A stretch of 34,306 nt of DNA from Paracoccaceae bacterium (GTDB lineage Bacteria; Pseudomonadota; Alphaproteobacteria; Rhodobacterales; Rhodobacteraceae), in assembly GCA_026713305.1 (NCBI GenBank), contig JAPOOS010000164.1:1-34306 (forward strand), in the 5' to 3' direction. The notes beneath the pieces are model-generated. The model saw nothing but the letters and a program-made list of their open reading frames with translations. It was not told where the DNA came from and did not search any database. The position numbers and the translations under genes were made by a program. Of this stretch, positions 5,547-34,306 are shown piece after piece (the first letter of the stretch is position 1; every line of letters starts with the position of its first letter).

Positions 5547-5620
5547 CGGCGGCGCTTCGCCGGGAATTCCGGCGTGGTCAGGAGCATGTCCGGTTCAGAA
5601 AACTGGCTTGGTTGAGGTCA

Positions 5621-6661: not shown

Positions 6662-6691
6662 TGCATCGGGAGCACAGCATCGGCGGTGACG

Positions 6692-7552: not shown

Positions 7553-7576
7553 ACGGATGCTGTTAGGCGGTCAACG

Positions 7577-8095
7577 ATGATCCGGCGCGGGCTGGCCAAC
7601 GCGGCGCAGTTCAGCGCGGTGGCTGTGCTGTCGATACTCGCAACGGTTGTCGACATTCAGCCGGCAACCCCCCTGTCCGGCAGCTTCAACTTTCCCAACC
7701 TCGTGTACTGTCTGATCTGCGCCTGGATCATCCGGAGCCCGCGCAACGCGCCGGCCCTTGTTGTCGCCGCGCTCTTTCTGCTGCTGGAAGTGATCTATGG
7801 CCTGCCGCCGGGGCTTTGGACGGCGCTCATGCTCGTGGCCACGGAATTGCTGCGCTCAGTTTCGCCGCGGCTGGGAAGCTACAGCTTCGTCGCCGAATGG
7901 GCCTTTGTGTGCCTGCTGTTTTCCCTTGCGCTGTTGCTGTACCAACTGGCCTTGCTGCTGACCTTCGCGCAGGCCATGACGACTGTGGCCATGACCAAGT
8001 ACATTGTTTCCACCGCGCTTTGCTATCCGCTTGCCGCAGCCATTGCGTCGCTGGTTGTCAGGCGGGGCCGCGCCAGCGACCCCTCGCCCGGATAG
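7577..8095 (+). CDS. mreD: rod shape-determining protein MreD
   Basis: A small polytopic membrane partner of MreC in the elongation complex. The 172-residue product is strongly hydrophobic with about five predicted membrane segments and ends in a charged tail (VVRRGRASDPSPG). MreD sequences diverge quickly, so the call rests on size, hydrophobicity and position between mreC and mrdA more than on motifs. It starts 24 bases after mreC and ends 17 bases before mrdA, consistent with one transcript. Confidence 0.85.
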   Translation: MIRRGLANAAQFSAVAVLSILATVVDIQPATPLSGSFNFPNLVYCLICAWIIRSPRNAPALVVAALFLLLEVIYGLPPGLWTALMLVATELLRSVSPRLGSYSFVAEWAFVCLLFSLALLLYQLALLLTFAQAMTTVAMTKYIVSTALCYPLAAAIASLVVRRGRASDPSPG

Positions 8096-8112
8096 AGGAC
8101 TGCGAGGCGGCG

Positions 8113-10053: not shown

Positions 10054-11198
10054 CCTTCCTGCCTGCGGATGACGATCGCAAGGAGGCGTGGTTCGAACGC
10101 TTCAAGCGCTTCAACTGGCTTCTGGCATTTGCCCTGTGCCTGTTGGCTGTCCTGGGCTTTGTCGTCCTGTATTCGGTTGGAGGCGGGTCAGGCCAGCCCT
10201 GGGCGCTTCCGCAGTTGCAGAAGTTTCTGATCGGACTAGTTGCAATGCTCGCCATCGCACCGATTCCGGTCAGCTTCTGGAAGAGGTTCGTGTTTCCGGC
10301 CTATGTCGCTTGCATTGGGCTGCTTGTCGTCACCGAACTGCAGGCCTCGCCGGGAGGGTCGGCAAATCGCTGGCTGGATCTTGGATTCCTGCGGTTTCAG
10401 CCGTCGGAACTGTGCAAGCTAGCCATCATACTGGTCATAGCCACGTTCTACGATGCGATTGGACCGGAAAGGTCGTCCCGCCCGCTCTGGGTTGCAGTTC
10501 CCCTGTTTCTGATCGCCGTGCCGGTGGCTCTGATTGTCAGGCAGCCCGACCTGGGAACTGCGCTTCTGGTTGTTCTGGGCGGGGTTGCGCTGATGTTCGT
10601 TGCCGGCGTCAGCATCTACTACTTTCTCGGCGGAGGTCTTGTGGCGATCGCCGGCATCGGCGCCGCGTTGTTCAGCCGCGGCACGTCGTGGCAAATCCTG
10701 GAAGACTACCAGTATCAGAGGATCGAAACATATTTGAGCCCCGACCCGAACATTCTCGGTTCGGGATACCACATCACGCAGTCAATCATTGCTCTAGGCT
10801 CGGGAGGGGTTTCAGGGCGCGGCTATCTCCACGGAACGCAGAGTCAGCTTGGTTTCCTGCCGGAACGGCACACCGACTTCGTGTTCAACACGTTGGGAGA
10901 GGAATTCGGTCTGGTTTGGGGCCTGATCCTCCTTCTGTTCTACGCCACAATCGTGGGCATGTGCATCTACATGTCGATTCGCACGCGTTCCCGTTTCAAT
11001 TCGCTGGTCATCTTTGGGGTTGGAACCATGTTCTTTCTGTATTTTTCCCTCAATCTGGCAATGGTGACCGGGCTGACGCCAGTGGTTGGCGTTCCGCTGC
11101 CCTTCATATCATACAGTGGCTCGGCCACTCTCACCCTCATGATCGGCTTCGGGCTCGTGCAAAGCGCGTACCTGCATGACCGGTCCGCGAACGGATAG
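10050..11198 (+). CDS. rodA: RodA, SEDS peptidoglycan glycosyltransferase
   Basis: A polytopic glycan polymerase partnering PBP2 in the elongasome. The 382-residue protein has about ten hydrophobic segments and the SEDS landmarks: NRWLDLGFLRFQPSEL (106-121), RQPDLGTALL (164-173) and LPERHTDFVFN (270-280), which includes the catalytic-site Asp (D276). It ends in the conserved GLTPVVGVPLPFISY block. That block continues SYSGS (354-358), where many family members have SYGGS, a small deviation next to an otherwise intact motif. The ATG overlaps the mrdA stop by four bases, indicating translational coupling. Confidence 0.95.
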   Translation: MTFLPADDDRKEAWFERFKRFNWLLAFALCLLAVLGFVVLYSVGGGSGQPWALPQLQKFLIGLVAMLAIAPIPVSFWKRFVFPAYVACIGLLVVTELQASPGGSANRWLDLGFLRFQPSELCKLAIILVIATFYDAIGPERSSRPLWVAVPLFLIAVPVALIVRQPDLGTALLVVLGGVALMFVAGVSIYYFLGGGLVAIAGIGAALFSRGTSWQILEDYQYQRIETYLSPDPNILGSGYHITQSIIALGSGGVSGRGYLHGTQSQLGFLPERHTDFVFNTLGEEFGLVWGLILLLFYATIVGMCIYMSIRTRSRFNSLVIFGVGTMFFLYFSLNLAMVTGLTPVVGVPLPFISYSGSATLTLMIGFGLVQSAYLHDRSANG

Positions 11199-12753: not shown

Positions 12754-14394
12754 CTACTTGGAATGCCCCTTGCGCAGCACACGGTAGACATCCGACTGTC
12801 GGAGGGGAGAATCTTCCGGGATCAGGTCGAACGGCGCTCTTTCTTCAAAGTCGCTGGCCGACATGTCCGCCCCGGCATCGATCAGGGTCTGCACGACAGC
12901 CGCCGTTTCGCTGTTTGCAGCGGCATTGTGCAGGGGCGCCCAACCGCGCTCGTCGGTCGCATTCGGGTCACCCCCGGCATCGATCAGAATTTGCACGACA
13001 GCCGCCGTTTCGCTGCTTGCAGCAGCAGCGTGCAGGGATGTCTTGCCGCGCTCGTCCGTCGCATTCGGGTCACCCCCGGCATCGATCAGTGTCTGGACAA
13101 CGACAGGCGAACAGCACATGATTACCGCTCTGTGAAGAGGCGTGAATCCACCCTTTGCACGCGCCTTCAGAACCGCTCCCGCATCAAGGAGCGTCTTCAC
13201 GACGGGAAGTGGCACGTCGTTTTCTATCGCCATGTGAAGAGGCGTCAATCCTTCCTTTGTACGCGCCTCCAAATCCGCCCCGGCGCCAAGGAGCATCTTC
13301 ACGACGGAAGAGGTTGCGTTGGCGGCTGCCGCAACGTGCAGAGGCGTCAATCCTTCCCATGAACGCGCCTCCAAATCCGCCCCGGCGCCAAGGAGCGTCT
13401 TCAGGATGGAAGGGGATGCGTTGGTGGCTGCCGCGGCGTGCAGAGGCGTTAATCCTTCCCATGAACGCGCCTCCAAATCCGCCCCGGCGCCAAGGAGTGT
13501 TCTCATCACAGCCGGTTCACGGGAGCCTTGCACCCCAAAGTGAAGCGGCGTGAATCCTTCCAAGGAACGTGCTTCCACATCCGCCCCGGCCTTGATTAGA
13601 GTCCGCACGATTGCCGACAATTCGCTTAAGTGTGCCGCCGAGTGCAAAGGAGTGAAACCCTTCTGGCAACGCGCACGCACGTCTGCCCCTGCAACGAGAA
13701 GAATTCGCACGATGGCGGGCATTGCGGTGACTGCTGCTGCCAAATGCAGGGCCGTCGACCCTCCTGGGGTACACGCTTTCAGATCCGCACCTGCATCGAC
13801 GAAGGCCTGCACGACGGCAGGCGATCTGCTTTCAATCGCTGCCAAATGCAGGGGAGTCCTGCCATTAGGCAAGCACGCTTCCAGATCCGCACCTGCATCG
13901 ACGAGGACCTGCACGACTGCAGGCCTTCTGCCTTCTCTAGCCACCATGTGAAGAGGAGTGAGACCCACCTTGCAACGCGCATTCACATCTGCTCCGGCAT
14001 CGATGAGAGTCCTCACGGTGGCAGGCAATTTGCTTTCAGCCGCCGCAAAATGCAGAGGAGTCAAACCCTCCTCGCAACACGCATTCACCTCCGCTCCGGC
14101 ATCGATGAGAACCTGCACGACGGCAGACGATTCGTTTACTGCCGCCGCCAAATGCAGGGGAGTGGTGTCATCGGGTGTGCGCGCATTCACCTCCGCTCCA
14201 GCATCGAGCATTGCCCGAACAACGGCCGGATCCTTTGTGTGGAAAGCCGCCCCATGAAGAATGGTCATCCCCTGGTCGGAGCGCGCATTCACGTCTGCTC
14301 CAATGTCAACAATGGCCTGCACAATTTCAGGCACATCGGTAATGCCTGCCACCCGGTGGAGTTCGGTAAAGCCCAGTGTGTCGCGTGAATACAC
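12754..14394 (-). CDS. protein of 15 tandem ankyrin repeats
   Basis: The 546-residue product is almost wholly repeats. Seven residues (MYSRDTL) are followed by exactly 15 units of 34 residues, each of the form G-x-T-P-L-H-x-A-A...V-x-x-L-(I/L)-x-A-G-A-D-(V/L)-x-A-R. A 29-residue C-terminal cap (ERAPFDLIPEDSPLRQSDVY...) begins like a sixteenth unit. 7+510+29 equals the whole length, so no unit has an insertion. Canonical ankyrin units are 33 residues. There is no signal peptide, membrane segment or catalytic domain, so it should be a protein-binding scaffold that is cytoplasmic or exported by an unseen route. The GTG start at 14394 has GGAGG four bases upstream. Ankyrin proteins are enriched in host-associated bacteria, but a housekeeping role is also possible. 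Confidence 0.85.
   Translation of the reverse strand: MYSRDTLGFTELHRVAGITDVPEIVQAIVDIGADVNARSDQGMTILHGAAFHTKDPAVVRAMLDAGAEVNARTPDDTTPLHLAAAVNESSAVVQVLIDAGAEVNACCEEGLTPLHFAAAESKLPATVRTLIDAGADVNARCKVGLTPLHMVAREGRRPAVVQVLVDAGADLEACLPNGRTPLHLAAIESRSPAVVQAFVDAGADLKACTPGGSTALHLAAAVTAMPAIVRILLVAGADVRARCQKGFTPLHSAAHLSELSAIVRTLIKAGADVEARSLEGFTPLHFGVQGSREPAVMRTLLGAGADLEARSWEGLTPLHAAAATNASPSILKTLLGAGADLEARSWEGLTPLHVAAAANATSSVVKMLLGAGADLEARTKEGLTPLHMAIENDVPLPVVKTLLDAGAVLKARAKGGFTPLHRAVIMCCSPVVVQTLIDAGGDPNATDERGKTSLHAAAASSETAAVVQILIDAGGDPNATDERGWAPLHNAAANSETAAVVQTLIDAGADMSASDFEERAPFDLIPEDSPLRQSDVYRVLRKGHSK
12844..14373 (-). repeat. 15 tandem 102-bp ankyrin-coding repeats
   Basis: DNA encoding the ankyrin units has strict 102-bp periodicity. 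Most units are diverged. Units 9-11 (13252-13557) share long identical stretches, for example the segment coding LLGAGADLEARSWEG, twice at 102-bp spacing and a third time almost unchanged. Units 13-15 (12844-13149) likewise share the DNA for LIDAGGDPNATDERG. These two blocks look like recent duplication or gene conversion within an older array. Confidence 0.85.
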
Positions 14395-16109: not shown

Positions 16110-17459
16110 TCAAGAATTCTTCAGACCCACTTCGTCGAGGAATTTCCCAATGCGGGGGTCGCAAAACACGCTGTGGGAAGTCAACGGGCGGAACAGGTCA
16201 ATGCCCTCCAGACTCGTGCACCTGCTGAGCGCCACGTATGTTTGGCCATACGCAAAGGCACGCCTCAGATTGATCGCCATATGATCGAAGGTCTTGCTTT
16301 GGCTCTTGTGGATTGTGATTGCCCAGCAAAGCCGGAATGGAAACTGACTGTACGTGCCTATTCTGACAGGAAGGATCTTTCCCATCTCGACCTGGTACTT
16401 GAAAATCTCCCACACTTGCCTCTTGACGACTGCATGGGGGCCATCCTTGAGACGCACATGCACCTGCTTTGGGGATGAAGTTCCCTGAATGTCGGTCACG
16501 ATCCCCAGAGAGCCGTTGACCCAGCGTCTGTCGGCATCGTTGTGGACCATCATGACCTGGGCGCCTACGCAAAACCGCAGATTTCGCGGCGCCCTTTCGT
16601 TTTCCCTCTTGCACTCGCCCGTAATCGATGCCTTGCTGAGCCAAATCCTGTTCCTTCCGGCAACTTCCCTCAACCGCGCGCCGTTGATGCTGTCCGCATC
16701 CTTGTTCGAGCCGGTTAGGACAACATAGTAGTCCCTTTTGGGAATGTCCGACGAAGGTCTCACTCGCTGGTTCAGCAATTCGAGATCGCGTCTGTCGGAT
16801 ATTCCTTCCCTTATGCGATTGAGCAGCGCCACAAACCGCCCGTCAACCTGTCGGAAGATTCGCGTTAGGTTTATGACCTTGAGCCTGCTGCGCAGATCGC
16901 CGGGACCACTCCTGAAAGCTTCTGCATCGAAGAAATACTGCGAATTGTACCAGGGAGGACCGCTGAAGAACTGCCGCTCATCCTTCGGGACAACCGGCGG
17001 CAGCTGGTACAGGTCGCCGAACATGACGAGGCGAACGCCGCCAAACGGAAGTCCCTGCCTCGGCCCGTGTTTTCGAAGGATCACGTCGATGCAGTCCAGC
17101 AGATCGGCCCGCAGCATCGAAACCTCGTCAATGACGATCGTGTCCAGCTTTTTCATCAAGCGGCGACGGCGGCCGCTCATCCAGCCTGGCGACTGCCTCA
17201 GGGAATCAGGCGTCACGTTGGGACCGAAGCGAAAGAAGCTGTGAATGGTCTGTCCCTCGACGGTTAGGGCCGCCACACCCGTCGGCGCCAGCACCACAGG
17301 CTGTTCCAGGTGATGCTCGCAAAAGTATCTTAGCAGTGTCGACTTGCCCGTGCCGGCGCGGCCGGTCACAAGAACATGCGACGTTCCGTAGTCAAGCTCG
17401 CGGAGCGCCGACTTGAACTCGCTGGTGAGTTCAATGTCGTCCAGTTCCAATTCTGTCAT
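16110..17459 (-). CDS. PIF1-like AAA ATPase/DNA helicase
   Basis: A 449-residue superfamily 1B helicase of the PIF1/RecD-like type. Visible motifs, in order: Walker A GRAGTGKST (33-41), motif Ia LAPTGVAAL (58-66) with the PIF1 QTIHSFF, Walker B VIDEVSM (109-115) and motif III FGDLYQLPPV. The C-terminal UvrD-like part has TIHKSQSKTF and TYVALSRCTSLEGI (motif VI). The length fits the catalytic core with no added nuclease or binding domain. PIF1 enzymes unwind 5' to 3' and often act on G-quadruplexes and stalled forks; bacterial homologues are scattered and often mobile-associated. It stands alone between transposon debris and nhaA, read divergently from nhaA. Confidence 0.88.
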   Translation of the reverse strand: MTELELDDIELTSEFKSALRELDYGTSHVLVTGRAGTGKSTLLRYFCEHHLEQPVVLAPTGVAALTVEGQTIHSFFRFGPNVTPDSLRQSPGWMSGRRRRLMKKLDTIVIDEVSMLRADLLDCIDVILRKHGPRQGLPFGGVRLVMFGDLYQLPPVVPKDERQFFSGPPWYNSQYFFDAEAFRSGPGDLRSRLKVINLTRIFRQVDGRFVALLNRIREGISDRRDLELLNQRVRPSSDIPKRDYYVVLTGSNKDADSINGARLREVAGRNRIWLSKASITGECKRENERAPRNLRFCVGAQVMMVHNDADRRWVNGSLGIVTDIQGTSSPKQVHVRLKDGPHAVVKRQVWEIFKYQVEMGKILPVRIGTYSQFPFRLCWAITIHKSQSKTFDHMAINLRRAFAYGQTYVALSRCTSLEGIDLFRPLTSHSVFCDPRIGKFLDEVGLKNS

Positions 17460-23792: not shown

Positions 23793-24614
23793 TCATGCGG
23801 ATTGCGGATATCGTGCGGGGACGAATGTCTGGTCCGACATGGGCGGTCGCACATACCCGTAGGCTTCCGACCTTGGCGGAAGTTCGATCGGGGCTGGCGT
23901 CAGGTCCTCATATGGAATCTGAGACAGCAAGTGACTGATGCAATTCAGCCTTGCATGCTTCTTGATGTCGGCGTCGACCACGAACCAAGGGGCCTGCTTG
24001 ATGTCGGTGTGAGCGAAATTCTGGTCTTTCGCCCTGGAGTAGTCCACCCATTTGTTTCGGGATTCGAGATCCATTGGCGACAGCTTCCAGCGCTTGAGCG
24101 GCTCGACAAGACGGCTGGCGAATCTCTTCTCCTGCTCCTCATCCGAGACCGAGAACCAATACTTGACCAACTGAATTCCCGAACGAACCAGCATCCTCTC
24201 GAATTCCGGGCAGGAACGCATGAACTCGCGATACTCCTCGTCGGTGCAAAAGCCCATGACTCGCTCAACACCGGCACGGTTGTACCAACTGCGGTCGAAC
24301 AACACCATTTCACCGGCTGCAGGAAGGTGGGCACAATAGCGCTGGAAATACCACTGCGTCTTTTCTCGCTCGGTTGGCGCCGGCAATGCAGCCACGCGAC
24401 AAATGCGTGGGTTCAGGTACTGGATGATGCGCTTTATTACGCCGCCCTTTCCGGCTGCATCCCGTCCTTCAAAAATGACGACAACCTTGAGATTCCTTTC
24501 CTGTATCCACGCCTGCATCTTGACCAGCTCAACTTGCAGCCGCAGCAGTTCTCGTTCGTACTCCCGCTTGCGGATCTTCTTTCTTTTCTTGCTCTTCGCG
24601 ATGACGTCTGCCAT
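23793..24614 (-). CDS. ppk2: polyphosphate kinase 2 family protein
   Basis: A PPK2-type P-loop kinase of 273 residues that transfers phosphate between polyphosphate and nucleotides (usually NDP to NTP for one-domain class I members). A basic, coiled N-terminus (about 1-40) precedes Walker A GRDAAGKGG (50-58 region). The lid and Walker B area follow with LFDRSWYNRAGVE (about 105-117, D107), EREKTQWYFQRY and KYWFSVSDEEQEKRF. The C-terminal FVVDADIKKHARLNCI matches the family's W-x-V-x-x-D-x-K-x-x-R-x-N motif. The length fits a single-domain enzyme. AAAGGAT lies just before the ATG. Nucleotide preference cannot be told from sequence. Confidence 0.92.
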   Translation of the reverse strand: MADVIAKSKKRKKIRKREYERELLRLQVELVKMQAWIQERNLKVVVIFEGRDAAGKGGVIKRIIQYLNPRICRVAALPAPTEREKTQWYFQRYCAHLPAAGEMVLFDRSWYNRAGVERVMGFCTDEEYREFMRSCPEFERMLVRSGIQLVKYWFSVSDEEQEKRFASRLVEPLKRWKLSPMDLESRNKWVDYSRAKDQNFAHTDIKQAPWFVVDADIKKHARLNCISHLLSQIPYEDLTPAPIELPPRSEAYGYVRPPMSDQTFVPARYPQSA

Positions 24615-25370: not shown

Positions 25371-25692
25371 GCATGCCCTGTTGAAGCCAATTTGTCACAA
25401 TGCCTTCATGTCCAATCAGCGATCATTTGCGCGCTGCGTCAAACATATTCGGGTAGTGGCATGGTGGGCCGGTTGCGTTGCGTGATGTCGAACCTTGCAG
25501 GGTGCGAGGGCGGTCGTTGCCTGAATCAGGCCTCAACCGATGCGGGCCGGAACGCCTTCGCCGCGCACTGCCGGTGTCTTCGCCTGTTCCTTCCACTTGG
25601 AAGACAACAATCGCCGCGGCTGCAAGCTCTGAAGCCTACAGATTCGGCCGAACAGCCATGAAATCCAAAGCTGACTGTCAGGGGGCTGGAGA
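25371..25692. other. no gene recognised
   Basis: DNA between the IS630 fragment and the Rid gene terminator. Frames on both strands are short and not protein-like. I looked for the rest of the IS630 transposase (catalytic DDE motifs) here and did not find it. Confidence 0.35.
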
Positions 25693-25717
25693 AAGGATGA
25701 GGCGGCAAACCCGCCTC
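25693..25717 (-). terminator. candidate terminator of the leftward hydratase-rid operon
   Basis: On the minus strand, GAGGCGG-GTTTG-CCGCCTC (25717-25699) forms a 7-bp GC-rich stem followed by ATCCTTTC, a partly T-rich tract. It lies about 90 bases past the Rid stop codon. The T tract is imperfect, so confidence is moderate. Confidence 0.4.
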
Positions 25718-25792
25718 TCCCATCTGTCTCCCTTGCGGGGAAACGGTGATCCCCGAGGGACCCCGCATATGCATGCGAGAATGGCATCCACC

Positions 25793-25804
25793 GACATGCA
25801 TGTC
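25793..25804. repeat. 12-bp perfect palindrome over rid stop
   Basis: GACATGCATGTC is a perfect palindrome touching the stop codon of the Rid gene. A related imperfect one, CGCATATGCATGCG, lies 30 bases away. It could be a protein-binding site or chance. Confidence 0.3.
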
Positions 25805-26258
25805 AAGTTTTGGGGAGTGGGAGTTGCCGCTCCGCCAATCGGCCGGTTTGGCAGGCGGTGATTTCGACCTCGACCTTGAACTCAGGCCTGGTGAACCCTC
25901 TGACAATCACGAGCGTGGAAGCCGGCGGGAACGGCAGCCCGGCAATCCAGCGATCCCTGACCGCCATGTAGGCGCCCATGTGTTCGCGGTGGGTCAGAAA
26001 CCCTGCAATTCGGGCAACGCACGAACGGTCAAGCCCTGCCTCAAAGAGGATGGCGTCGGCGCTTTCGAAGCAGATTTCAGCCTGCGCAGCGACGTCCGGG
26101 GGAATTTCCCGGTCCCGCGAGATGCCCAGCTGCCCCGAGGCAACAAGGATGCGCTGCACGTCTTCCAGCAGCACACCGTGCGAATAGTTGCCAAACGGCG
26201 GATGAATTCCAGCGGGATTCACAGGCCGCGAGAGGACCTGTCGCCCCGTGTCAGACAT
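25803..26258 (-). CDS. Rid (YjgF/YER057c/UK114) family protein
   Basis: A 151-residue protein of the RidA fold, which forms trimers with active sites between subunits. Family blocks: FGNYSHGV (22-29), VASGQLGI (39-46), the helix V-RIAGFLTHREHMGAYMAVRD and the C-terminal FKVEVEITA. In imine-hydrolysing RidA an Arg follows P-A (P-A-R-S); here the position is P-A-S-T (112-115), so the usual enamine/imine-binding Arg is absent. This points to one of the Rid subfamilies of unknown chemistry. It follows the MhpD-like gene by 78 bases on the same strand, and GGAGAA precedes the ATG. Rid proteins in aminomuconate pathways act as deaminases, a possible parallel. Confidence 0.85.
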   Translation of the reverse strand: MSDTGRQVLSRPVNPAGIHPPFGNYSHGVLLEDVQRILVASGQLGISRDREIPPDVAAQAEICFESADAILFEAGLDRSCVARIAGFLTHREHMGAYMAVRDRWIAGLPFPPASTLVIVRGFTRPEFKVEVEITACQTGRLAERQLPLPKT

Positions 26259-26336
26259 CCGGATTCTCCATGCCGCCCGGCAGCCCAGCCAAGCTGCGCC
26301 CGGTTGGATGGCTGAAGGGAGTCCCGACGACGGGAA

Positions 26337-27134
26337 TCATGCAAACTCGATCCGCAGAGAACCCAGCCCTGAAAACTCGGCCGACACAGTGGATCCGTGG
26401 CCTATCGGCACGGGCTTGACCGAAGAACCCGTCATGATCAGGTCCCCCTTGCGAATGTGTCCGCCAAGTTCTCCCAACGCTTCGAGTCTGCCTGCCAACC
26501 AGGACACCGCCCTCGCCGGATGTCCCAGAACATCGTTGGCCCGGGCCTCGTAGACTGTCCCGTCCACCTCAAGCTTCACCTTGATGGCGGCGAAGTCGAC
26601 CGACCCGGGGTCCATGCCTTCACTGGCCAGGACAATGCGCCCCGAGCCGACATTGTCGGCAACCACATCCTTGAAGTCCGCCGACAGCCCCACCCGGCTT
26701 TCGACAATCTCGAACGACGCATGGACCTTGCTGGTCGCCTCAATCACGTCTGCCACCGACAGGTCGCTGCCCTCAAGGTCCGAACCCATTTCGAACGCAA
26801 CTTCTGGTTCGATCAAGGTCTGGCAGTGCGTCTTCACCGGCAGCTTCGAATCGCCCGACACCCGGTGTCGGTCCACCAGGAACCCGAATTCCGGCTCGTC
26901 GATTCCCAGCATCGCCTGAATTGCCTCCGACGTGAATCCCACCTTGTAGCCAAGCCGCCTGGCTCCGGAGGCCAGCAGCAGTTGATAGACTCGGCGCCGG
27001 ATGGCAGCGGCGTCCGACGTGGAAATGACGGCCCGCGCGGTAACGGGCGCCAGCTTCACGTCCCGCTCCATGGCGTCCACGATTTCAGCGGCGAAGTCAG
27101 CCACTCTTGATTCCGACAATTGTTGATCGCTCAT
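26337..27134 (-). CDS. MhpD-like 2-oxopent-4-enoate hydratase / 4-oxalocrotonate decarboxylase family
   Basis: A 265-residue fumarylacetoacetase-fold enzyme of the hydratase/decarboxylase group acting on 2-oxo-enoates from ring-cleavage pathways. Putative metal ligands E109 and E111 in IEPEVAFEM and E142 in ASFEIVESR, with K64 in LGYKVGFTS, match the pattern of E. coli MhpD (K60, E106, E108, E139). The length equals the family norm. AGGGGAA precedes the ATG. It is first in a leftward pair with the Rid gene and is divergent from the ABC/amidohydrolase operon, which places a 2-oxo-enoate intermediate in that pathway. Hydratase and decarboxylase activity cannot be told apart by sequence alone. 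Confidence 0.85.
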   Translation of the reverse strand: MSDQQLSESRVADFAAEIVDAMERDVKLAPVTARAVISTSDAAAIRRRVYQLLLASGARRLGYKVGFTSEAIQAMLGIDEPEFGFLVDRHRVSGDSKLPVKTHCQTLIEPEVAFEMGSDLEGSDLSVADVIEATSKVHASFEIVESRVGLSADFKDVVADNVGSGRIVLASEGMDPGSVDFAAIKVKLEVDGTVYEARANDVLGHPARAVSWLAGRLEALGELGGHIRKGDLIMTGSSVKPVPIGHGSTVSAEFSGLGSLRIEFA

Positions 27135-27423
27135 TTCGAATTCCCCTTGTGCCTGGCCCTTGGATTCGGCGCTTCAATGCCGGAAGGCAACCACTCCCTT
27201 GAAGCTGGCCTTCCTGTCCTTCATGCTGCGGCCGAGGCGGCCTCCTGCATTCCGGCCAACGGCGTTGCATTTCTGTTTCCTGACGTTCGTGCCTTTCGCG
27301 GGCAGGACGCACATTCCAAGTCAAATTGCATATTGAGGGCAAATGTTAAATATGACGCAGCATGCAGGCAAGGTGTTGCCTGATTTGGACAATGGATCAA
27401 TTGCAAAATCGAAAGGATATCCA
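27135..27423. promoter_or_regulatory. divergent control region of the catabolic locus
   Basis: A 289-base region between the leftward hydratase-rid pair and the rightward ABC operon. The right half is AT-rich. TTGCAT (27326-27331) with TATGAC (27351-27356) is a poor, 19-base-spaced promoter candidate for the rightward operon. No TPP, guanidine or other riboswitch core was recognised. No regulator gene is present in the window, so control would come from elsewhere. Confidence 0.4.
27365..27382 (+). promoter_or_regulatory. 7-bp hairpin/possible operator in ABC operon leader
   Basis: CAGGCAA-GGTG-TTGCCTG is a perfect 7-bp inverted repeat with a 4-base loop, 41 bases before the GTG of the binding-protein gene and just after the promoter candidate. 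Position and symmetry fit a repressor operator or an mRNA leader hairpin. Confidence 0.4.
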
Positions 27424-28413
27424 GTGCGTAAAGCGATTGTCGTTGGAATATTTGGTTGGTTGCTGGCCGGAGTTGCCGGTGCAAGCGAGCTGCAAAAGGT
27501 GACCTTTGCAACCAACTGGCTCGCACAGGCCGAACACGGGGGCTTCTATCAGTCGGTGGCCGACGGAACCTACGCGGAATGCGGCTTGGACGTAACCATA
27601 TTGCCGGGGGGTCCCCAAGTGAACGGACGCGCCTTGATGCTTGCGGACAAGGTCCAGTTCCACATGGGCGGCGACCTGCTTCAGGCCTTCAGTTCGGTTG
27701 AGCAAAACATACCGGTGGTTTCGGTTGCGGCCATCTTTCAGAAACATCCGCAGGTCATTGTCGCCCATCCGGGCAAGGCGGAAACTTTCGAGGACCTGAA
27801 GAACCTGACACTTCTGATCGGGGACAATGGATTTCGCTCCTACTATCGCTGGATGATGGCTGAGTTCGGGTTCACGGTCGAACAGCGCATCCCGTACACC
27901 TTCAATCCGGCGCCGTTCCTTGCCGACGTGGACAAGGGGATGCAGGGATACCTTTCTTCGGAACCATATGTGATCCAGAAGGAAGGTGGATTCACGCCTT
28001 TGGTGTTTCTGATTGCCGACGCAGGCTACTCAACCTACGCCACGACCATCGAAACGATGGCGGACACGATTGCCAATGATCCTGAGGGCGTACAATGTTT
28101 CGTGGAAGGCTCGATAAAGGGGTGGTACAACTATCTCTATGGAGACCGCGCCGCGGCAGACGAGCTGATCAAGGGCCACAATCCCGAGATGTCCGATGAC
28201 AAGATCGCCTACGCCATAGAGAAGATGCTCGAACATGGCATCGTGGATTCAGGCGACGCGCTGGAGATGGGCATCGGCGCTCTGACCGACGAGAAAGTGG
28301 AGGACTTCTACAACAAGATGCGGTCATCCGGCGTCATGGAAGCCGACATCGACTGGAAATCCGCCTACACGACGCAGTTCGTGAACCAGGGCGTCGGCAT
28401 GGATCTCAAGTAG
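27424..28413 (+). CDS. ABC transporter substrate-binding protein, NMT1/THI5-like
   Basis: Periplasmic binding protein of a NitT/TauT-type importer. It has 329 residues with a signal peptide (MRKAIVVGIFGWLLAGVAGA, likely cut near residue 20), followed by the NMT1/THI5 start KVTFATNWLAQAEHGGFYQ. Later parts such as DLKNLTLLIGDNGF and YVIQKEGGF fit the fold. The start is GTG at 27424, because AAAGGA lies 6 bases upstream and a signal peptide begins there; the frame is open 81 bases further upstream. This family carries thiamine precursors, pyrimidines, riboflavin, sulfonates and other small ligands. Neighbouring genes suggest a nitrogen-containing ligand that is degraded. Confidence 0.88.
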   Translation: MRKAIVVGIFGWLLAGVAGASELQKVTFATNWLAQAEHGGFYQSVADGTYAECGLDVTILPGGPQVNGRALMLADKVQFHMGGDLLQAFSSVEQNIPVVSVAAIFQKHPQVIVAHPGKAETFEDLKNLTLLIGDNGFRSYYRWMMAEFGFTVEQRIPYTFNPAPFLADVDKGMQGYLSSEPYVIQKEGGFTPLVFLIADAGYSTYATTIETMADTIANDPEGVQCFVEGSIKGWYNYLYGDRAAADELIKGHNPEMSDDKIAYAIEKMLEHGIVDSGDALEMGIGALTDEKVEDFYNKMRSSGVMEADIDWKSAYTTQFVNQGVGMDLK

Positions 28414-28448
28414 GACGGTTGAGGCGAATGCCGAAACACTGCTGACTT

Positions 28449-28478
28449 GCCGCCGGCGTGCCTTGGCCAGCCGGCGGC
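28449..28478 (+). promoter_or_regulatory. intercistronic 9-bp GC hairpin
   Basis: GCCGCCGGC (28449-28457) and GCCGGCGGC (28470-28478) form a perfect 9-bp GC stem with a 12-base loop between the binding-protein gene and the ATPase gene. No T run follows. Such hairpins after binding-protein genes are known to protect the upstream mRNA or trim downstream expression (malE-malF type), raising the ratio of binding protein to membrane complex. That role here is inferred. Confidence 0.55.
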
Positions 28479-28503
28479 CTTCAACACGATCGGGTTTTCG
28501 GTT

Positions 28504-29289
28504 ATGCAAATGCGGCACCACGGTGACACTGTAGGCGACGGGCTGCTGACCATGCTCAGTGTCGACAAGACCTTCGGCGCCGACATCAAGGCCCTGAAGG
28601 ACATGTCCCTTCAGGTCAACGTCGGGGACTTCATCAGCCTGTTGGGACCTTCAGGCTGTGGAAAGTCGACGGCGCTGCGCATCATTGCCAGCCTGATCAA
28701 TCCAACCAGCGGGCGCGTCGAATGGGATGGAGACCACAGCCGCGGGTCAGTGGGCATCGTGTTTCAGGAACCAACCCTGATGCCATGGGCAACCGTTGCC
28801 AAGAACGTGTGGCTGCCGCACCGCCTGTCGGGCATTTCGTTCCGCAAGGCACGCTCCAAGATTGAGGATTGCCTGAAGGTCGTTGGCCTTGAGGATTTCT
28901 CGAACAGCTATCCGCGCGAGCTTTCGGGAGGGATGAAAATGCGTGTTTCCATTGCACGCGCGCTCGTGACCGATCCGCGCATCATCCTGATGGACGAACC
29001 GTTTGCCGCGCTTGACGAAATCACGCGTTTCAAGCTGAACAACGACCTCCTGCAGTTGAAGGAAAACGTGGGCTGCACAGTTATATTTGTGACGCATTCG
29101 GTGTTCGAGAGCGTTTTTCTTTCGAACCGGATTGCCGTTATGGTTGCCCGTCCTGGCCGCGTGTTCGAGGAAGTCGTGATTGACGAGGGCTACCCGCGCG
29201 ACGAGTCGTTTCGAACGTCTTCAAGCTATGCAGCCTATTGCAGAAGGGTCTCGGAATCCCTCAGACGGAGCACCAACGCCAAAACTTGA
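28504..29289 (+). CDS. ABC transporter ATP-binding protein (NitT/TauT type)
   Basis: The ATPase of the importer, 261 residues. Walker A LGPSGCGKST (47-56), Q-loop VFQEPTLMPW (87-95), signature LSGGM (140-144), Walker B IILMDEP (160-166) with D-loop AALDE, and the switch His in FVTHSVFES (H198). The Q-loop and signature follow the TauB/SsuB pattern. The frame is open from a TTG at 28447, but this covers the hairpin; ATG 28504, with another ATG two codons later, is more likely. Its last 50 bases overlap the open frame of the permease, but not the permease start chosen here. Confidence 0.9.
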   Translation: MQMRHHGDTVGDGLLTMLSVDKTFGADIKALKDMSLQVNVGDFISLLGPSGCGKSTALRIIASLINPTSGRVEWDGDHSRGSVGIVFQEPTLMPWATVAKNVWLPHRLSGISFRKARSKIEDCLKVVGLEDFSNSYPRELSGGMKMRVSIARALVTDPRIILMDEPFAALDEITRFKLNNDLLQLKENVGCTVIFVTHSVFESVFLSNRIAVMVARPGRVFEEVVIDEGYPRDESFRTSSSYAAYCRRVSESLRRSTNAKT

Positions 29290-29315
29290 CGCATTTCGCC
29301 ACCGACAAGGAAGCC

Positions 29316-30194
29316 ATGGCCCACATTTCCGACGAAATTGAAACCTCCCGCAGCGAAGCGTCGAAGGCAATCGTCGATGTCGACGAGTACAGGCGGCAAC
29401 GCCGTGCCAGGCTGGAGCGCATCGGCAAGTGGTTGATGCCGCTCATCGTGCTTGCGCTGATGCTCTGGATGTGGAACCGCATCGTCACGGTGAACGAAAT
29501 CCCGCACTACATCCTGCCGGACCCGGCGCTAGTGATCACTACCCTGGCTGCAGACATCTCGCTGCTTTGGAACGCACTGCTGGTTACGCTCAGGATCACC
29601 TTGCTGGCCCTCGCCGTGGCCGTGATTGGAGGCGTGGGGCTGGCGGTCATATTCACGCAGTCGCGGTTTGTCGAAATGTCGCTGTTTCCGTATGCAGTCA
29701 TCCTGCAGGTCACGCCCGTCATTTCCATCGCGCCGCTGATCTTCATCTATGTGGACAACCGCACTGTCGGACTGCTCCTCTGTGCGTGGATCGTGGCATT
29801 CTTCCCGGTCCTGTCCAACACAACTCTCGGGTTGAATTCAGTTGATCACAATCTGCGCGATCTGTTTCGGATCTACGGGGCCAACAGATGGCAGGAGCTT
29901 GTTCACCTGAGACTTCCCTCCGCATTGCCCTATTTCCTTGGCGGGCTGCGTATTGCCGGCGGGCTGGCCCTGATAGGCGCCGTGGTCGCCGAATACGTGG
30001 CCGGAACGGGCGGGATCAATTCCGGGCTGGCCTTCACGATTCTTGAGGCAGGCTACCGCCTCAACATTCCGCGCATGTTTGCGGCGCTGCTCCTCATCGC
30101 AGGCACCGGCGTGCTGATTTTCCTGATCCTGTCGCTGCTCAGTCACCTGCTGCTTCACAAGTGGCACGAAAGCGCCGTCAAGCGGGAGGCGTAG
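29316..30194 (+). CDS. ABC transporter permease (NitT/TauT type)
   Basis: Membrane subunit of the importer, 292 residues. A charged 45-residue cytoplasmic head precedes about six hydrophobic segments. The ATPase-coupling EAA loop is visible as GANRWQELVHLRLPSALPYFLGGLR, followed by GAVVAEYVAG. ATG 29316 is preceded by AAGGAA; the frame is open to 29238, inside the ATPase gene. Its TAG stop overlaps the GTG of the amidohydrolase by one base, so transporter and first enzyme are translationally coupled. Confidence 0.9.
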   Translation: MAHISDEIETSRSEASKAIVDVDEYRRQRRARLERIGKWLMPLIVLALMLWMWNRIVTVNEIPHYILPDPALVITTLAADISLLWNALLVTLRITLLALAVAVIGGVGLAVIFTQSRFVEMSLFPYAVILQVTPVISIAPLIFIYVDNRTVGLLLCAWIVAFFPVLSNTTLGLNSVDHNLRDLFRIYGANRWQELVHLRLPSALPYFLGGLRIAGGLALIGAVVAEYVAGTGGINSGLAFTILEAGYRLNIPRMFAALLLIAGTGVLIFLILSLLSHLLLHKWHESAVKREA

Positions 30195-31465
30195 TGGATT
30201 TCATTGCTCTGCCGTCAGCGCGCCACTACACGATCCGGAACGTCAGACTGGCAAGAGCCGGCGAAGACGGGACAACGCGCTTCTTCAAGAGCGAAGTTTC
30301 CGTCCGCGACGGACGCCTGACCGAACAGCCGTCTGCAGCACGAATCGATGCAGGAGGCGGCATTGTCCTGCCAGTTTTCGTCGACATGCACACGCATCTC
30401 GACAAGGGGCACACTTGGCCCCGTGCCTCCAACCCGGACGGCACGTTTGACGGAGCGCTCTCAACCGTGCGCAACGACCGGGCTCTTCACTGGTCGGAAA
30501 GAGACGTCCGAATGCGCATGGACTTTTCCCTTCAATGTGCGTTTGCGCACGGCACGCGCGCCATTCGAACCCACCTTGACTCGGCTTCGCCTCAGCATCG
30601 GATTTCGTGGCCGGTGTTTCGGGAGACTGCGCAGGATTGGGCCGGTCGCATGGAGTTGCAGGCTGTTGCCCTTGTTCCGATCGAGGACGTGGACAGTCAC
30701 GGCGACTTCGTCGAAATCGCAAATTTGGTCGCGGCCAGTGAAGGCGTTCTCGGCTGCGTGACCTATCCATGCGGGGATTTCACGCGGAGGCTGAACGTGC
30801 TGTTCCGGATGGCCGCCGAGCGCGAAGTCGATCTTGATCTTCACGTCGACGAAACTCACGACACCGATTCAAACACGCTTCGCGAGATTGCGGCCACCGC
30901 AATTGAAACCGGCTTCGGCGGAGCAGTGACCGTCGGTCACTGCTGCTCGCTTTCCCGGCAGCCGGCCGGCATTGCCGCCGAAACGATGGAGCTGGTTGCC
31001 CGCTCGGGTCTGGCTGTGGTTTCGCTGCCAATGTGCAACTTGTACCTCCAGGACCGCGGCCTTGCCCGCACGCCCCGCTGGAGGGGAGTGACGCTGGTTC
31101 ATGAGCTGGATGCACGTGGCGTGCCGGTTTGCTTCGCTTCCGACAACACACGCGACCCCTTCTATGCCTACGGCGATCTCGACATGGTTGAAGTAATGCG
31201 CGAGGCAACCCGCATCTGCCATCTCGATCACGCTTCGCGACCCTGGCTGGACGCCTTTTCGGCGCGACCGGCGGAGGCTTGCGGTTTCTCGCGATCGGCT
31301 TTGGAGCCGGGCGACCCGGCGGACTTCATACTGTTTTCGGCACGCAACTGGACCGAGTTGCTGGCTCGGCCCCAATCCGACCGCGTCGTTGTCAGAAACG
31401 GGCTGGCAATTGACCGCAGCCTTCCGGACTATCGCCAACTCGATGAACTGATGGAAACACGATGA
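30194..31465 (+). CDS. CodA-like amidohydrolase (cytosine deaminase-type)
   Basis: A metal-dependent hydrolase of 423 residues, similar to E. coli cytosine deaminase across its catalytic core. Metal ligands: H66 and H68 in DMHTHLDKGH, H217 in DLHVDE, and D317 in CFASDNTRDPFY. The catalytic Glu is E220 and a further His is H249 in TVGHCCSL. The spacing parallels CodA (H61/H63, H214, E217, H246, D313). Ligands are retained, but surrounding residues differ, so the substrate may be another cyclic amidine, aminoazine or N-substituted ring. GTG 30194 is chosen because GGGAGGC lies just before it and the permease stop overlaps it; an upstream frame start at 30161 lies inside the permease. Its stop overlaps the next ATG (ATGA). 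Confidence 0.88.
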   Translation: MDFIALPSARHYTIRNVRLARAGEDGTTRFFKSEVSVRDGRLTEQPSAARIDAGGGIVLPVFVDMHTHLDKGHTWPRASNPDGTFDGALSTVRNDRALHWSERDVRMRMDFSLQCAFAHGTRAIRTHLDSASPQHRISWPVFRETAQDWAGRMELQAVALVPIEDVDSHGDFVEIANLVAASEGVLGCVTYPCGDFTRRLNVLFRMAAEREVDLDLHVDETHDTDSNTLREIAATAIETGFGGAVTVGHCCSLSRQPAGIAAETMELVARSGLAVVSLPMCNLYLQDRGLARTPRWRGVTLVHELDARGVPVCFASDNTRDPFYAYGDLDMVEVMREATRICHLDHASRPWLDAFSARPAEACGFSRSALEPGDPADFILFSARNWTELLARPQSDRVVVRNGLAIDRSLPDYRQLDELMETR

Positions 31466-32862
31466 ATGCCAACCTAACAGCAGCCAAGGCCGAGCTCGAA
31501 GGGCTCGACTTGGTGGACAGCGGACCCGTGGTCAGGGCCAAGAGCAGAGATTTCTTCTGGTACTCGCCGATTCTGAAGGCGCGTCTCGACCATGTGGTCG
31601 CGGACTTCGTTGTCTCGCCGCGAAACGAGAACGAAGTCATGCGCGTGCTTGCCACCTGCTACCGCCATGACGTCCCGGTAACGTTGAGGGGCGCCGGCAC
31701 CGGGAACTATGGCCAGGCAATGCCGCTGGCCGGTGGATGCGTGATGCACATGCATCGCATGTCGAGCGTGAAGGAGGTGCATCCGGGCCGCGTGATCGTT
31801 GAACCGGGCTGCCTGATCAAGGACCTTGACCAAGCCTGCATCGCCCATTCGGGTCAGGAGATCCGCATGTTTTCGTCGACATGGGCAACCGCCTCGATTG
31901 GCGGCTTCGTCGCCGGAGGATCCGGCGGCGTTGGCTCCTGCACATGGGGACAGCTCAGGGATCTGGGCAACATCATTCGTCTGCGAGTGGTGACCATGGA
32001 GGAGACGCCGAGGGTCATGGAATTCCGCGGCAGCGAACTGCCGCGAGTGTCTCACGCATACGGCACCAATGGCGTCATAACGGAAATCGAGCTGCCGCTC
32101 GCTCCCGCCTATGAGTGGGTGGACCTGATTGTCGGCTTTGACGATTTCATGGAGTCGGTTGCCTACACGGCCGATCTGGCCAACGAGGACGGCATCCTGA
32201 TCAAGCTGGCGACTCCCATGGAGGCCCCGATAGCCCACGACTACTTCCCGCGCATTCGGCCTCATGTCACGCCCAAAACCAGCATCATTGGGCTGATGGT
32301 TGCTCCCCACGCCATGGATGCCTTCCTGACGTTCACCGAGGAATGGAAGAACGCCGGGATTCTCTACCGGTCGGACAACCACAACTGGAAGCGGGGACCT
32401 GGCCTTGTCTTCGAATACGGATGGAACCACACCACCCTGCGAGCGCTGCGAATCGATCCCGCGATCACTTACCTCCAGGTGCGGTACGGCTTTCCCGAAT
32501 ACATGGATCTGATTGCCGAGGTGCGACGGATTTTCGGCAGCGAAGTGCTGCAGCATCTCGAGGCCATTCGTGAAAAGGGCAAGGTCATCTTTGCGGGACT
32601 GCCGCTTGTCAAGTTCACCTCCGAGGAGCGAATGGACGAAATCGTGCGCATACACGAGGAGCTTGGCTGCATGATATTCAACCCTCATCGCTACACGCTC
32701 GAGGAGGCAGGCCGGCAGACGGTCGACCGCCGCCAGCTCGAATTCAAGCGGCAGGCCGACCCAAAGGGTCTCCTCAACCCAGGCAAGATGATTGCCTGGC
32801 ACGCTCCCGACTGGAACTATCGGGAAATGTACGCCTATCCCGACATGCAGCGGCCCGGTTGA
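31462..32862 (+). CDS. FAD-binding oxidase (FAD_binding_4 / GlcD-like)
   Basis: A 466-residue flavoprotein of the vanillyl-alcohol oxidase/PCMH superfamily. The FAD-binding PP loop is LRGAGTGNYGQAMPLAGG (75-92), followed by VEPGCLIKDLD (113-123) and ATASIGGFVAGGSGGVGS (142-159). The C-terminal FAD-oxidase part ends with the typical DPKGLLNPGKMI. No signal peptide or His/Cys covalent flavin site is obvious. The family oxidises hydroxyacids, alcohols or amines, passing electrons to O2 or a carrier; the downstream quinone-reductase-like proteins may be related to electron or quinone handling. Start and stop overlap the neighbours (ATGA; TGATG). Confidence 0.88.
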   Translation: MNANLTAAKAELEGLDLVDSGPVVRAKSRDFFWYSPILKARLDHVVADFVVSPRNENEVMRVLATCYRHDVPVTLRGAGTGNYGQAMPLAGGCVMHMHRMSSVKEVHPGRVIVEPGCLIKDLDQACIAHSGQEIRMFSSTWATASIGGFVAGGSGGVGSCTWGQLRDLGNIIRLRVVTMEETPRVMEFRGSELPRVSHAYGTNGVITEIELPLAPAYEWVDLIVGFDDFMESVAYTADLANEDGILIKLATPMEAPIAHDYFPRIRPHVTPKTSIIGLMVAPHAMDAFLTFTEEWKNAGILYRSDNHNWKRGPGLVFEYGWNHTTLRALRIDPAITYLQVRYGFPEYMDLIAEVRRIFGSEVLQHLEAIREKGKVIFAGLPLVKFTSEERMDEIVRIHEELGCMIFNPHRYTLEEAGRQTVDRRQLEFKRQADPKGLLNPGKMIAWHAPDWNYREMYAYPDMQRPG

Positions 32863-33440
32863 TGCGGGCATTGGTTCTCTTTGCCCATCCGGTTCCGGAC
32901 AGCTATTCCGCTTCGCTGCACAGGATTGTCGTGGACACACTCGAAGGCAGGGGTTGGGAAGTCGACGACTGCGACCTTTACGCCGAGCGCTTCAACCCGG
33001 TGCTCAGCCTTGAGGAACGTCGCAGCTACCACGACGAGCCCGGCAATGTCGCGCCCGTCAAGAAGTATGTCGACAGGTTGCAGAGCGCCCAAGCCCTGGT
33101 CCTGGTGTTTCCAGTGTGGATTTTCGGGTTTCCGGCCATTCTCAAGGGATTTTTCGATCGCGTCTGTCTGCCTGGCGTGGCATTTCGACTGGTTGACGGT
33201 CGCGTGGCGCCGAACCTCCAAAACATTCGCAGTCTTGCCGCCGTAACGACCTATGGCGGCACTCGCCTGCGGGCGCTGCTGGCGGGAGATCCACCTCGCA
33301 AAATTGTCACTCGCTCCGTTCGCTTCTACTGCCAGCCGGAAAGGATGCGATATCTGGCGCTGTACGACATGAACCGCGCCACCGAACACCGGCTGAAGGC
33401 GTTTCAGAAGCGGGTGCAAAGCGAATTTGAAGGTTTCTGA
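32862..33440 (+). CDS. NAD(P)H:quinone oxidoreductase-type flavoprotein, copy 1
   Basis: A flavodoxin-like (Flavodoxin_2) protein of 192 residues. The nucleotide/flavin loop near the N-terminus is LVLFAHPVPDSYSASL, and the flavin-binding VFPVWIFGFPAILKGFFDRVCLPG (about residues 78-101) is the family signature. Such enzymes (NQO1, KefF/MdaB types) bind FMN or FAD and carry out two-electron reductions with NAD(P)H. The ATG shares a base with the oxidase stop (TGATG); a TTG one codon earlier is unlikely. A related gene follows immediately. Confidence 0.87.
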   Translation: MRALVLFAHPVPDSYSASLHRIVVDTLEGRGWEVDDCDLYAERFNPVLSLEERRSYHDEPGNVAPVKKYVDRLQSAQALVLVFPVWIFGFPAILKGFFDRVCLPGVAFRLVDGRVAPNLQNIRSLAAVTTYGGTRLRALLAGDPPRKIVTRSVRFYCQPERMRYLALYDMNRATEHRLKAFQKRVQSEFEGF

Positions 33441-34036
33441 TGCAGACGCTTGTCGTCTTCTGTCACCCAAGTCACGAGAGCTTCAACGCCGCGGTCCTGG
33501 AAACCGTCACGCAGCGCCTGCAATCGAAGGGCGTGGAACACCGCGTTCGCGACCTGTATGGCGACAATTTCAATCCGGTAATGACAATGAGCGAGCTTGC
33601 CGGATATCTGGACTCCCCCGCCAACCGCAACGCTCTTCAGACGGATGTCGAGAATCTTCTGTGGTGCGATACTCTGGTGTTTGTGTATCCGACCTGGTGG
33701 TACGGATTGCCGGCCATGCTCAAGGGCTGGCTTGACCGGGCCATGCTGCCTGGCGTGGCATTTCACTTGCCGGAAAGCGAGAGAGCACGGATCCGTCCGG
33801 GCCTGCGGCATGTCGGAAGGCTTGCGCTGTTCACGACCTGCGGAGCCAGCTGGCTCCAAACGCAGCTAATGGGCGCGCCCGGCAAGAGAACCATCATGCG
33901 CGGCGTCAGGCATCTCTGTGCACCCAGGTTGAGGTGCGCATACGCTGCCCATTATCGCATGGACTTTTCGACGCAGCGCAGTCGAAGGAAGCATCTCGAC
34001 AATGTGGCCGCCAAAATGGACCGGCTGCTCAAGTGA
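33440..34036 (+). CDS. NAD(P)H:quinone oxidoreductase-type flavoprotein, copy 2
   Basis: 198 residues, same family as the preceding gene. It has VVFCHPSHESFNAAV at the N-terminus and VYPTWWYGLPAMLKGWLDRAMLPGVAF as the flavin-binding region. The two copies align along their length, and both share D-L-Y-x-x-x-FNPV, but they are clearly diverged, so the duplication is not recent. The copies may form a heterodimer or act on successive intermediates. Its ATG overlaps the previous TGA by one base (TGATG), extending the coupled block. Confidence 0.87.
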   Translation: MQTLVVFCHPSHESFNAAVLETVTQRLQSKGVEHRVRDLYGDNFNPVMTMSELAGYLDSPANRNALQTDVENLLWCDTLVFVYPTWWYGLPAMLKGWLDRAMLPGVAFHLPESERARIRPGLRHVGRLALFTTCGASWLQTQLMGAPGKRTIMRGVRHLCAPRLRCAYAAHYRMDFSTQRSRRKHLDNVAAKMDRLLK

Positions 34037-34091
34037 GATTCCAGGTGCAACAGCCCCGGCCCTGCCACGGCTGAACGAACAAGGAGGCCCA

Positions 34092-34306
34092 ATGTATCGC
34101 AACTGGATGGAGATTTCCGCAGCCGGCTACAGCAAGACCGACGTGCAGCAAACCGTTGCCGTCCTTCCAACCGCCGCAATCGAACAGCATGGCCCTCACC
34201 TGCCGGTGGGAACTGATTCGTTGATCGCCACAGGCATGTTGTCCGAAGTGGCAAAGTCGCCACCCGAGGTCGCAAGGCTGCGTGTGCTTCCGGTTCAGAC
34301 CGTCGG
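34092..34306 (+). CDS. creatininase family protein (partial, 3' end beyond window)
   Basis: 71 codons of a creatininase-fold amidohydrolase cut by the window edge. The N-terminal signature AVLPTAAIEQHGPHLPVGTD carries the usual metal ligands Glu, His and Asp. AAGGAGG lies 4 bases before the ATG. It starts 55 bases after the second flavoprotein in the same direction and is probably the next operon member. Family enzymes hydrolyse cyclic amides (creatinine), formamidopyrimidines (the archaeal ArfB/FAPy hydrolase) or process peptides (MftE). In this setting, opening or deformylation of a nitrogen heterocycle is an attractive role. Confidence 0.88.
   Translation, partial: MYRNWMEISAAGYSKTDVQQTVAVLPTAAIEQHGPHLPVGTDSLIATGMLSEVAKSPPEVARLRVLPVQTV

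Follow-up and report, generated by a model that had tools for sequence, protein, structure and literature searches.

We describe a gene cluster at the right end of contig JAPOOS010000164.1 of a Paracoccaceae bacterium (assembly GCA_026713305.1), which is probably an operon for the import and degradation of pterins (pteridines). The window, i.e., the whole stretch of DNA that was analysed, is one whole contig of 34306 bases, and the source assembly consists of 351 contigs. Ten genes were read in the two divergent units already described in the original prediction, which was made from the sequence alone: a minus-strand pair encoding a Rid-like and an MhpD-like protein lies opposite a plus-strand series. 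All families named at that time (importer, CodA-like, FAD, flavoproteins, creatininase, Rid and MhpD-like) were matched in Pfam searches.

The minus-strand unit comprises the gene for a Rid-family protein of the arginine-less type (25803..26258; 151 amino acids, AA; PF01042, 61 bits) and an accessory gene for a protein of the MhpD-like 2-oxo-acid hydratase/decarboxylase family (26337..27134, 265 AA; PF01557, 31 bits). It is followed by a divergent intergenic region of 289 bases (27135..27423). The plus-strand series begins with an NMT1/THI5-type substrate-binding protein (27424..28413; 329 AA from GTG, 356 AA from the ATG at 27343), an ATP-binding cassette (ABC) transporter ATPase with an uncertain start (28504..29289; PF00005, 117 bits) and an ABC transporter permease (29316..30194, alternative TTG start at 29286; PF00528, 78 bits). 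It continues with a CodA-like amidohydrolase, a predicted pterin-type deaminase of 423 AA with a GTG start (30194..31465; PF07969, 118 bits), and a flavin adenine dinucleotide (FAD) oxidoreductase of 466 AA, which is related to Protein Data Bank (PDB) entry 6v42 (31462..32862; PF01565, 83 bits). Two flavodoxin-fold NAD(P)H oxidoreductases, called flavoprotein 1 (32862..33440, 192 AA) and flavoprotein 2 (33440..34036, 198 AA) below, match PF02525 (Flavodoxin_2) with 96 and 108 bits, respectively. The last gene encodes a creatininase-family amidohydrolase (34092..34306; PF02633, 58 bits), of which only the 5’ part with the first 71 residues is present because the contig ends at 34306 together with the window.

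The four consecutive overlaps of 1-4 bases claimed originally are real when the junctions are read from the DNA. The permease and the amidohydrolase overlap by 1 base (TAGTG), the amidohydrolase and the oxidoreductase by 4 bases (ATGA), the oxidoreductase and flavoprotein 1 by 1 base (TGATG; 4 bases if the preceding TTG is the start), and flavoproteins 1 and 2 again by 1 base (TGATG). At the same four junctions of the closest kept relative (locus L002, see below) the overlaps are 1, 4, 4 and 1 bases. The gap between flavoprotein 2 and the creatininase-family gene is 55 bases. GTG 27424 is the probable start of the binding protein, since the protein’s N-terminus then resembles a signal peptide (judged by eye) and matches L002; the permease probably starts at ATG 29316, which would leave a gap of 26 bases after the ATPase. 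The region exceeds chance expectation: its longest stop-to-stop frame has 505 codons, whereas none of 50 mononucleotide shuffles gave more than 363.

For the analysis of conservation, a pattern derived from the FAD enzyme was matched to 489 stretches in the genome collection, 485 of which encode a relative. The best 80 of these 485 were kept; most carry Rhodobacteraceae-type record titles, with exceptions such as L057 and L064. A locus was scored for a given gene only if its flank covers the expected place, and the sizes of the neighbour windows as well as the E-value limits were our choice. L002, whose FAD enzyme is 83% identical, has the same ten genes in identical order; its creatininase-family gene is whole (262 AA) and is the last in the operon, the next gene being on the opposite strand. 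At the expected place, the binding protein was found in 70/70, the ATPase in 74/74, the permease in 76/77 and the amidohydrolase in 77/78 loci. The flavoproteins were found in 74/75 and 73/74 loci, where one may match in place of the other because they are paralogues (36% identical to each other), and the creatininase in 65/68. The Rid gene was at its place in 44/66 loci and the MhpD-like gene in 5/68.

In 398 genomes sampled from the phylum, the FAD enzyme (E ≤ 1e-60) and the amidohydrolase (E ≤ 1e-40) were each detected in 32 genomes and either gene in 33; both occurred together in 31 genomes vs. 2.6 expected, a count which ignores the relatedness of the genomes, depends on the E-value limits chosen and scores at most four candidates per genome. 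G200 is the only genome with the FAD enzyme alone and G095 the only one with the amidohydrolase alone. Where both genes occur, they share a contig and are at most 6 kb apart (31/31 genomes), with a distance of at most 300 bases in 28/31. Twenty longer stretches, chosen from the matching genomes of this sample plus one genome of the window’s genus, were also read, and the importer (three genes), amidohydrolase, FAD enzyme and creatininase are all together in 13 of them. The same parts, in the same or another order, were found in Rhizobium, Paroceanicella, Palleronia, Pantoea, Alloyangia and on a Comamonadaceae plasmid. In the window’s genus, seven of the eight other genomes have the FAD enzyme. 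Lack of joint conservation of the neighbours, which would speak against the conserved unit proposed in the original prediction for taking up and breaking down a nitrogenous and perhaps heterocyclic compound, was looked for and not found, since the neighbours recur together across the relatives and the sampled genomes; this part of the earlier interpretation is supported.

The most specific indication of a substrate comes from the FAD oxidoreductase. It matches PDB 6v42 with an E-value of 1e-170 over residues 3-454, far above other solved structures, and is 55% identical over about 450 residues; its sole Pfam match at E ≤ 0.001 is PF01565 (FAD_binding_4). The title of 6v42 is ‘Crystal structure of the flavin oxygenase with cofactor bound involved in folate catabolism’. 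The literature was searched, and no paper was found for 6v42/6v43 or for a folate-catabolism oxygenase; hence, the title is taken as a statement of the depositors. Of the system behind 6v42/6v43, a structure exists for this one enzyme only. Eight genomes contribute the sequences that are closest to 6v42 among the fetched loci (73-75%), and in 8/8 of these the amidohydrolase adjoins the enzyme at a distance of 12-15 bases. L128, one of the eight, was read at length and also has the importer, the creatininase, the Rid gene and both flavoproteins. A structural model of the FAD enzyme, built from 14 sequences at ≥ 70% identity, has a predicted local distance difference test (pLDDT) value of 51.5. 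Because this model is poor, its fold matches were used just for reading the 6v42 title and the relation is based on sequence. PDB relatives of flavoprotein 2 include NQO1/NQO2.

In the amidohydrolase, catalytic and pocket residues were examined by alignment to E. coli CodA in 83 sequences, i.e., 81 from clusters and two from plasmids without an adjacent FAD enzyme. Amidohydrolase matches of ≤ 340 residues were excluded, whereby 77/79 matched loci were kept, and a separate count was made for five distant sequences. CodA residues His61, His63, His214, Glu217, His246 and Asp313 are kept in 83/83 sequences. Gln156 is replaced in 83/83, and Asp314 is Asn and Trp319 is Phe in 83/83; the five distant sequences agree. 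In CodA, Gln156 is the residue that holds cytosine, and Gln156 and Asp314 belong to the cytosine pocket. Judged from these residues, the chemistry of the enzyme looks retained, and its substrate pocket does not look like that of CodA.

The Rid protein of the cluster has Ala113 at the position of RidA Arg105. The comparison covered 53 Rid sequences, namely the window, 48 loci (some with the gene outside its expected place) and four named plasmids; arginine was found at this position in 0/53 (Ala in 47, Thr in 3, Val in 3), and the equivalent of RidA Glu120 is kept in 50/53, the other three having gaps. According to excerpts of PMC8113886, the arginine is required for enamine deaminase activity, arginine-less Rid proteins have shown no detectable activity of this kind, and Rid4-7 lack the arginine. 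Since the deaminase arginine is missing, the enamine-type function assigned in the original prediction is unsupported, and the cluster Rid protein does either something else or something unassayed. The best NCBIfam matches of the MhpD-like protein are 2-oxopent-4-enoate hydratase/decarboxylase types, whose cut-offs it misses by a wide margin (TIGR03220: 157 bits, cut-off 409). Of the best 80 of 485 relatives only L002-L006 have the gene, and its original inclusion in the core is unsupported. The whole creatininase-family protein of L002 passes PF02633 and reaches 85 bits against TIGR04448, for which the creatininase cut-off is 235.

From gene content and order, their conservation, the catalytic residues and the relation to 6v42, we consider it likely that the locus is an operon for pterin import and degradation, which is predicted to open the pterin ring and to make the compound available as a nutrient, and we infer all substrates and steps of the following mechanism. 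Folates shed pterin and pterin-6-carboxylate in the environment. Such a pterin, e.g., pterin itself or pterin-6-carboxylate, would enter through the NMT1-type binding protein with its transporter, and the CodA-like enzyme would then deaminate the 2-amino-pyrimidine ring to yield a lumazine. Lumazine contains a uracil ring. The 6v42-like flavin enzyme would oxidise this lumazine, drawing on the two NQO-like flavoproteins for the supply or recycling of reducing equivalents, and the creatininase-family enzyme would hydrolyse a cyclic amide of the oxidised ring. The Rid protein would speed a later step, probably one other than ordinary imine deamination, and in close relatives only, the MhpD-like enzyme would act on a released 2-oxo-acid. 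Five molybdenum hydroxylase family matches were found in the window’s own genome, and such enzymes could act on pteridines as well. Pterins, favoured by this evidence, are not among the substrates suggested earlier (pyrimidines, pyridines, hydantoins and creatinine-like compounds). That the cluster is in addition a complete and widespread pterin-eating operon, with import, deamination to lumazine, flavin-driven ring opening, amide cleavage and an arginine-less Rid step, is put forward tentatively, and we hold this full version to be slightly more doubtful than probable.

Several observations weigh against this reading. The folate link depends on one PDB title, and the naming of the amidohydrolase by NCBIfam NF005759, ‘cytosine deaminase’ (582 bits, cut-off 403), conflicts with the result for the pocket residues. 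In G095 and in plasmid stretches of Aminobacter and Shinella, the amidohydrolase is found without the FAD enzyme; the amidohydrolase family alone therefore cannot fix the substrate. The missing arginine of the Rid protein counts against the simplest analogy to the Rut pathway (see below), judging by sequence. Nor is the gene set constant: the Rid gene is not at its place in 22/66 relatives and the MhpD-like gene in 63/68, and L060 has importer, amidohydrolase and FAD enzyme, while flavoproteins and creatininase are missing altogether. Seven of the 20 longer stretches lack at least one part, i.e., the creatininase (L124, L130), the amidohydrolase (L134, L135), the NMT1 importer (L138, L139) or both importer and creatininase (L133). 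In 47/69 loci, flavoprotein 2 and the creatininase are separated by an extra gene (293-322 residues), and the window is without it. This count refers to loci in which flavoprotein 2 and a plus-strand creatininase were matched (11/80 were left out), and scoring the extra gene required a gap of > 600 bases plus a single open frame carrying the motif H[T/S]D. The only one tested for its family, that of L015 (12612-13532), is a 2-oxoglutarate/Fe(II) dioxygenase by Pfam, and the extra gene of Paroceanicella is likewise annotated as a member of the 2-oxoglutarate/Fe(II) dioxygenase family. The extra gene and the MhpD-like gene do not occur together (0/5 loci), and no match to that dioxygenase was found in the window’s genome (92% complete assembly), a negative result obtained without a control. 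The limits of the co-occurrence count given above belong here, too, and so does a negative search result: among the names shown for 120 relatives listed for the amidohydrolase from Comamonadaceae (L141), Variovorax does not occur, and most rows are nameless.

Other substrates were considered for the same genes. The cluster might salvage or degrade a thiamin-type aminopyrimidine (hydroxymethylpyrimidine, HMP, or formylaminopyrimidine), whereupon the CodA-like enzyme would remove the 4-amino group after import by the NMT1 system. The binding protein scored above the cut-off of PF09084 (NMT1/THI5) and has the corresponding fold, and the two best structural matches of its model bind thiamin and formylaminopyrimidine. 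However, identity to these two is 16-18%, and other relatives of the same fold bind pyrroloquinoline quinone (PQQ), bicarbonate, sulfonates and nitrate. The ThiY-type thiamin-pyrimidine importers (3ix1, 4nmy) show the same low identity; the neighbours in the window are of catabolic type and are not thiamin genes. In the clusters whose annotation tables were read, no thiamin gene is annotated, and the nearest solved relative of the FAD enzyme is filed under folate catabolism; hence, a thiamin-type substrate is considered unlikely.

The automatic gene names would suggest a plain utilisation of cytosine or another pyrimidine, or of creatinine or hydantoin, to which the NF005759 score and the Pfam match of the creatininase family would fit. 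Gln156, Asp314 and Trp319 of CodA are each replaced in all of the sequences aligned, however, and the whole L002 protein stays far below the creatininase cut-off, both of which make this explanation very unlikely. As a further alternative, whole folate or pteroate might be imported and the C9-N10 bond be cleaved oxidatively by the FAD enzyme before the remaining steps follow. This would agree with the wording of the 6v42 title and with a Variovorax deaminase acting on folic and pteroic acid (PMC9513972, excerpts), but a carboxypeptidase-G-like or aminobenzoyl-glutamate hydrolase gene is absent from the window cluster and none is annotated in the clusters read. A small NMT1-type binding protein would presumably also be an unusual importer of folate, and we regard this explanation as quite unlikely.

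Import and degradation of a pterin, the reading preferred here, has counterparts in known systems. The pterin deaminases Arad3529 and that of Variovorax are also amidohydrolases acting on a cyclic amidine, and Arad3529 is reportedly a tested pterin deaminase. The pterin deaminase (PDA) of Variovorax sp. F1 has 399 residues, is 37.0% identical to Arad3529 and deaminates folic and pteroic acid according to excerpts of PMC9513972, which also mention a primer designed on ‘endoribonuclease’ genes downstream of homologues of this deaminase. The amidohydrolase of the window is longer than the 399-residue Variovorax PDA, with 423 AA; its NCBIfam match is NF005759. The amidohydrolase of the Pantoea cluster has 399 residues and a RidA gene overlaps its end; the ‘endoribonuclease’ gene mentioned in the excerpts (PMC9513972) parallels this arrangement, a resemblance in gene order and length only. 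In L140 and L141, a Rid-like frame (by eye) follows directly after the amidohydrolase, where the Rid queries gave no match.

RutA belongs to a family of flavin enzymes other than FAD_binding_4. In the Rut pathway, RutA/F act on uracil by ring opening, RutB is a hydrolase and RutC a deaminase (PMC8113886, excerpts). Both the Rut pathway and the cluster have an importer, a flavin-dependent ring opening (putative in the cluster), a hydrolase and a Rid-family protein. However, the flavin enzyme of the window is an FAD_binding_4 protein and not of the RutA type, and RutC has the arginine (Arg105/Arg104 of RidA/RutC) which the Rid protein of the cluster lacks. A RutR-family regulator was found in two other versions of the cluster, whereas no RutR-like gene adjoins the cluster of the window. 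In Rhizobium, the clusters that were read contain a single flavoprotein gene as well as a LysR gene.

The kinds of enzyme involved have been described before, and the relative of the key flavin enzyme is filed under folate catabolism, so that the earlier view of an uncharacterised locus is unsupported as far as the oxidoreductase is concerned. The literature was searched and no paper on this gene set was found, in which the cluster as a whole, the importer belonging to it and the extent of its occurrence would be described, nor one on lumazine-carboxylate intermediates. Folates and other pterins are present in most living things, and for the most part it seems that no genes have been assigned to the return of the pterin ring to the element cycles. 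If correct, the full version of the reading would define the bacterial pathway that returns the folate ring to nitrogen and carbon, and it would provide a natural substrate for arginine-less Rid proteins, whose function becomes testable through the conserved context. The trait may be common, because an FAD-enzyme relative is present in 134/394 sampled genomes of the bacterial family (E ≤ 1e-60), of which the weaker ones (35-50% identical) may represent another subfamily.

Relatives of the amidohydrolase were also seen outside such clusters. On the atrazine plasmid pADP-1, a 55% relative of the amidohydrolase of the Comamonadaceae version (92490-93821; L153:9815-11146) follows a BMP-family importer and stands beside the cyanuric acid operon atzD-atzG-atzE. 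In the plasmids of Aminobacter (L145:3408-16156) and Shinella (L146:3464-15564), a relative is found near another importer, Rid, GntR, isochorismatase, tautomerase and ‘dipicolinate synthase’ genes, which are perhaps another heterocycle pathway. The amidohydrolase family as a pathway marker by itself was rejected, as other plasmids pair it with quite different genes.

A promoter scan of 25400-28500 gave no σ70-like site, and the inverted repeats of the divergent region amount to one weak pair. A weak terminator-like hairpin lies 3’ of the Rid gene on the minus strand (25699..25717); terminator-like sites in the stretch number 3, vs. 2.6 expected. To the left of the cluster, a polyphosphate kinase 2 gene was found at 23793-24614 of the window, and at the corresponding place of L002 (3334-4203) a frame has an N-terminal sequence similar to polyphosphate kinase 2 (by eye). 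Further left, the window contains a PIF1-like helicase of 449 residues (16110-17459), a long ankyrin-repeat protein on the minus strand amid cell-shape and other ordinary genes (12754-14394), and an ordinary cell-shape cluster of the MreB-MreC-PBP2-RodA type (5612-11198).

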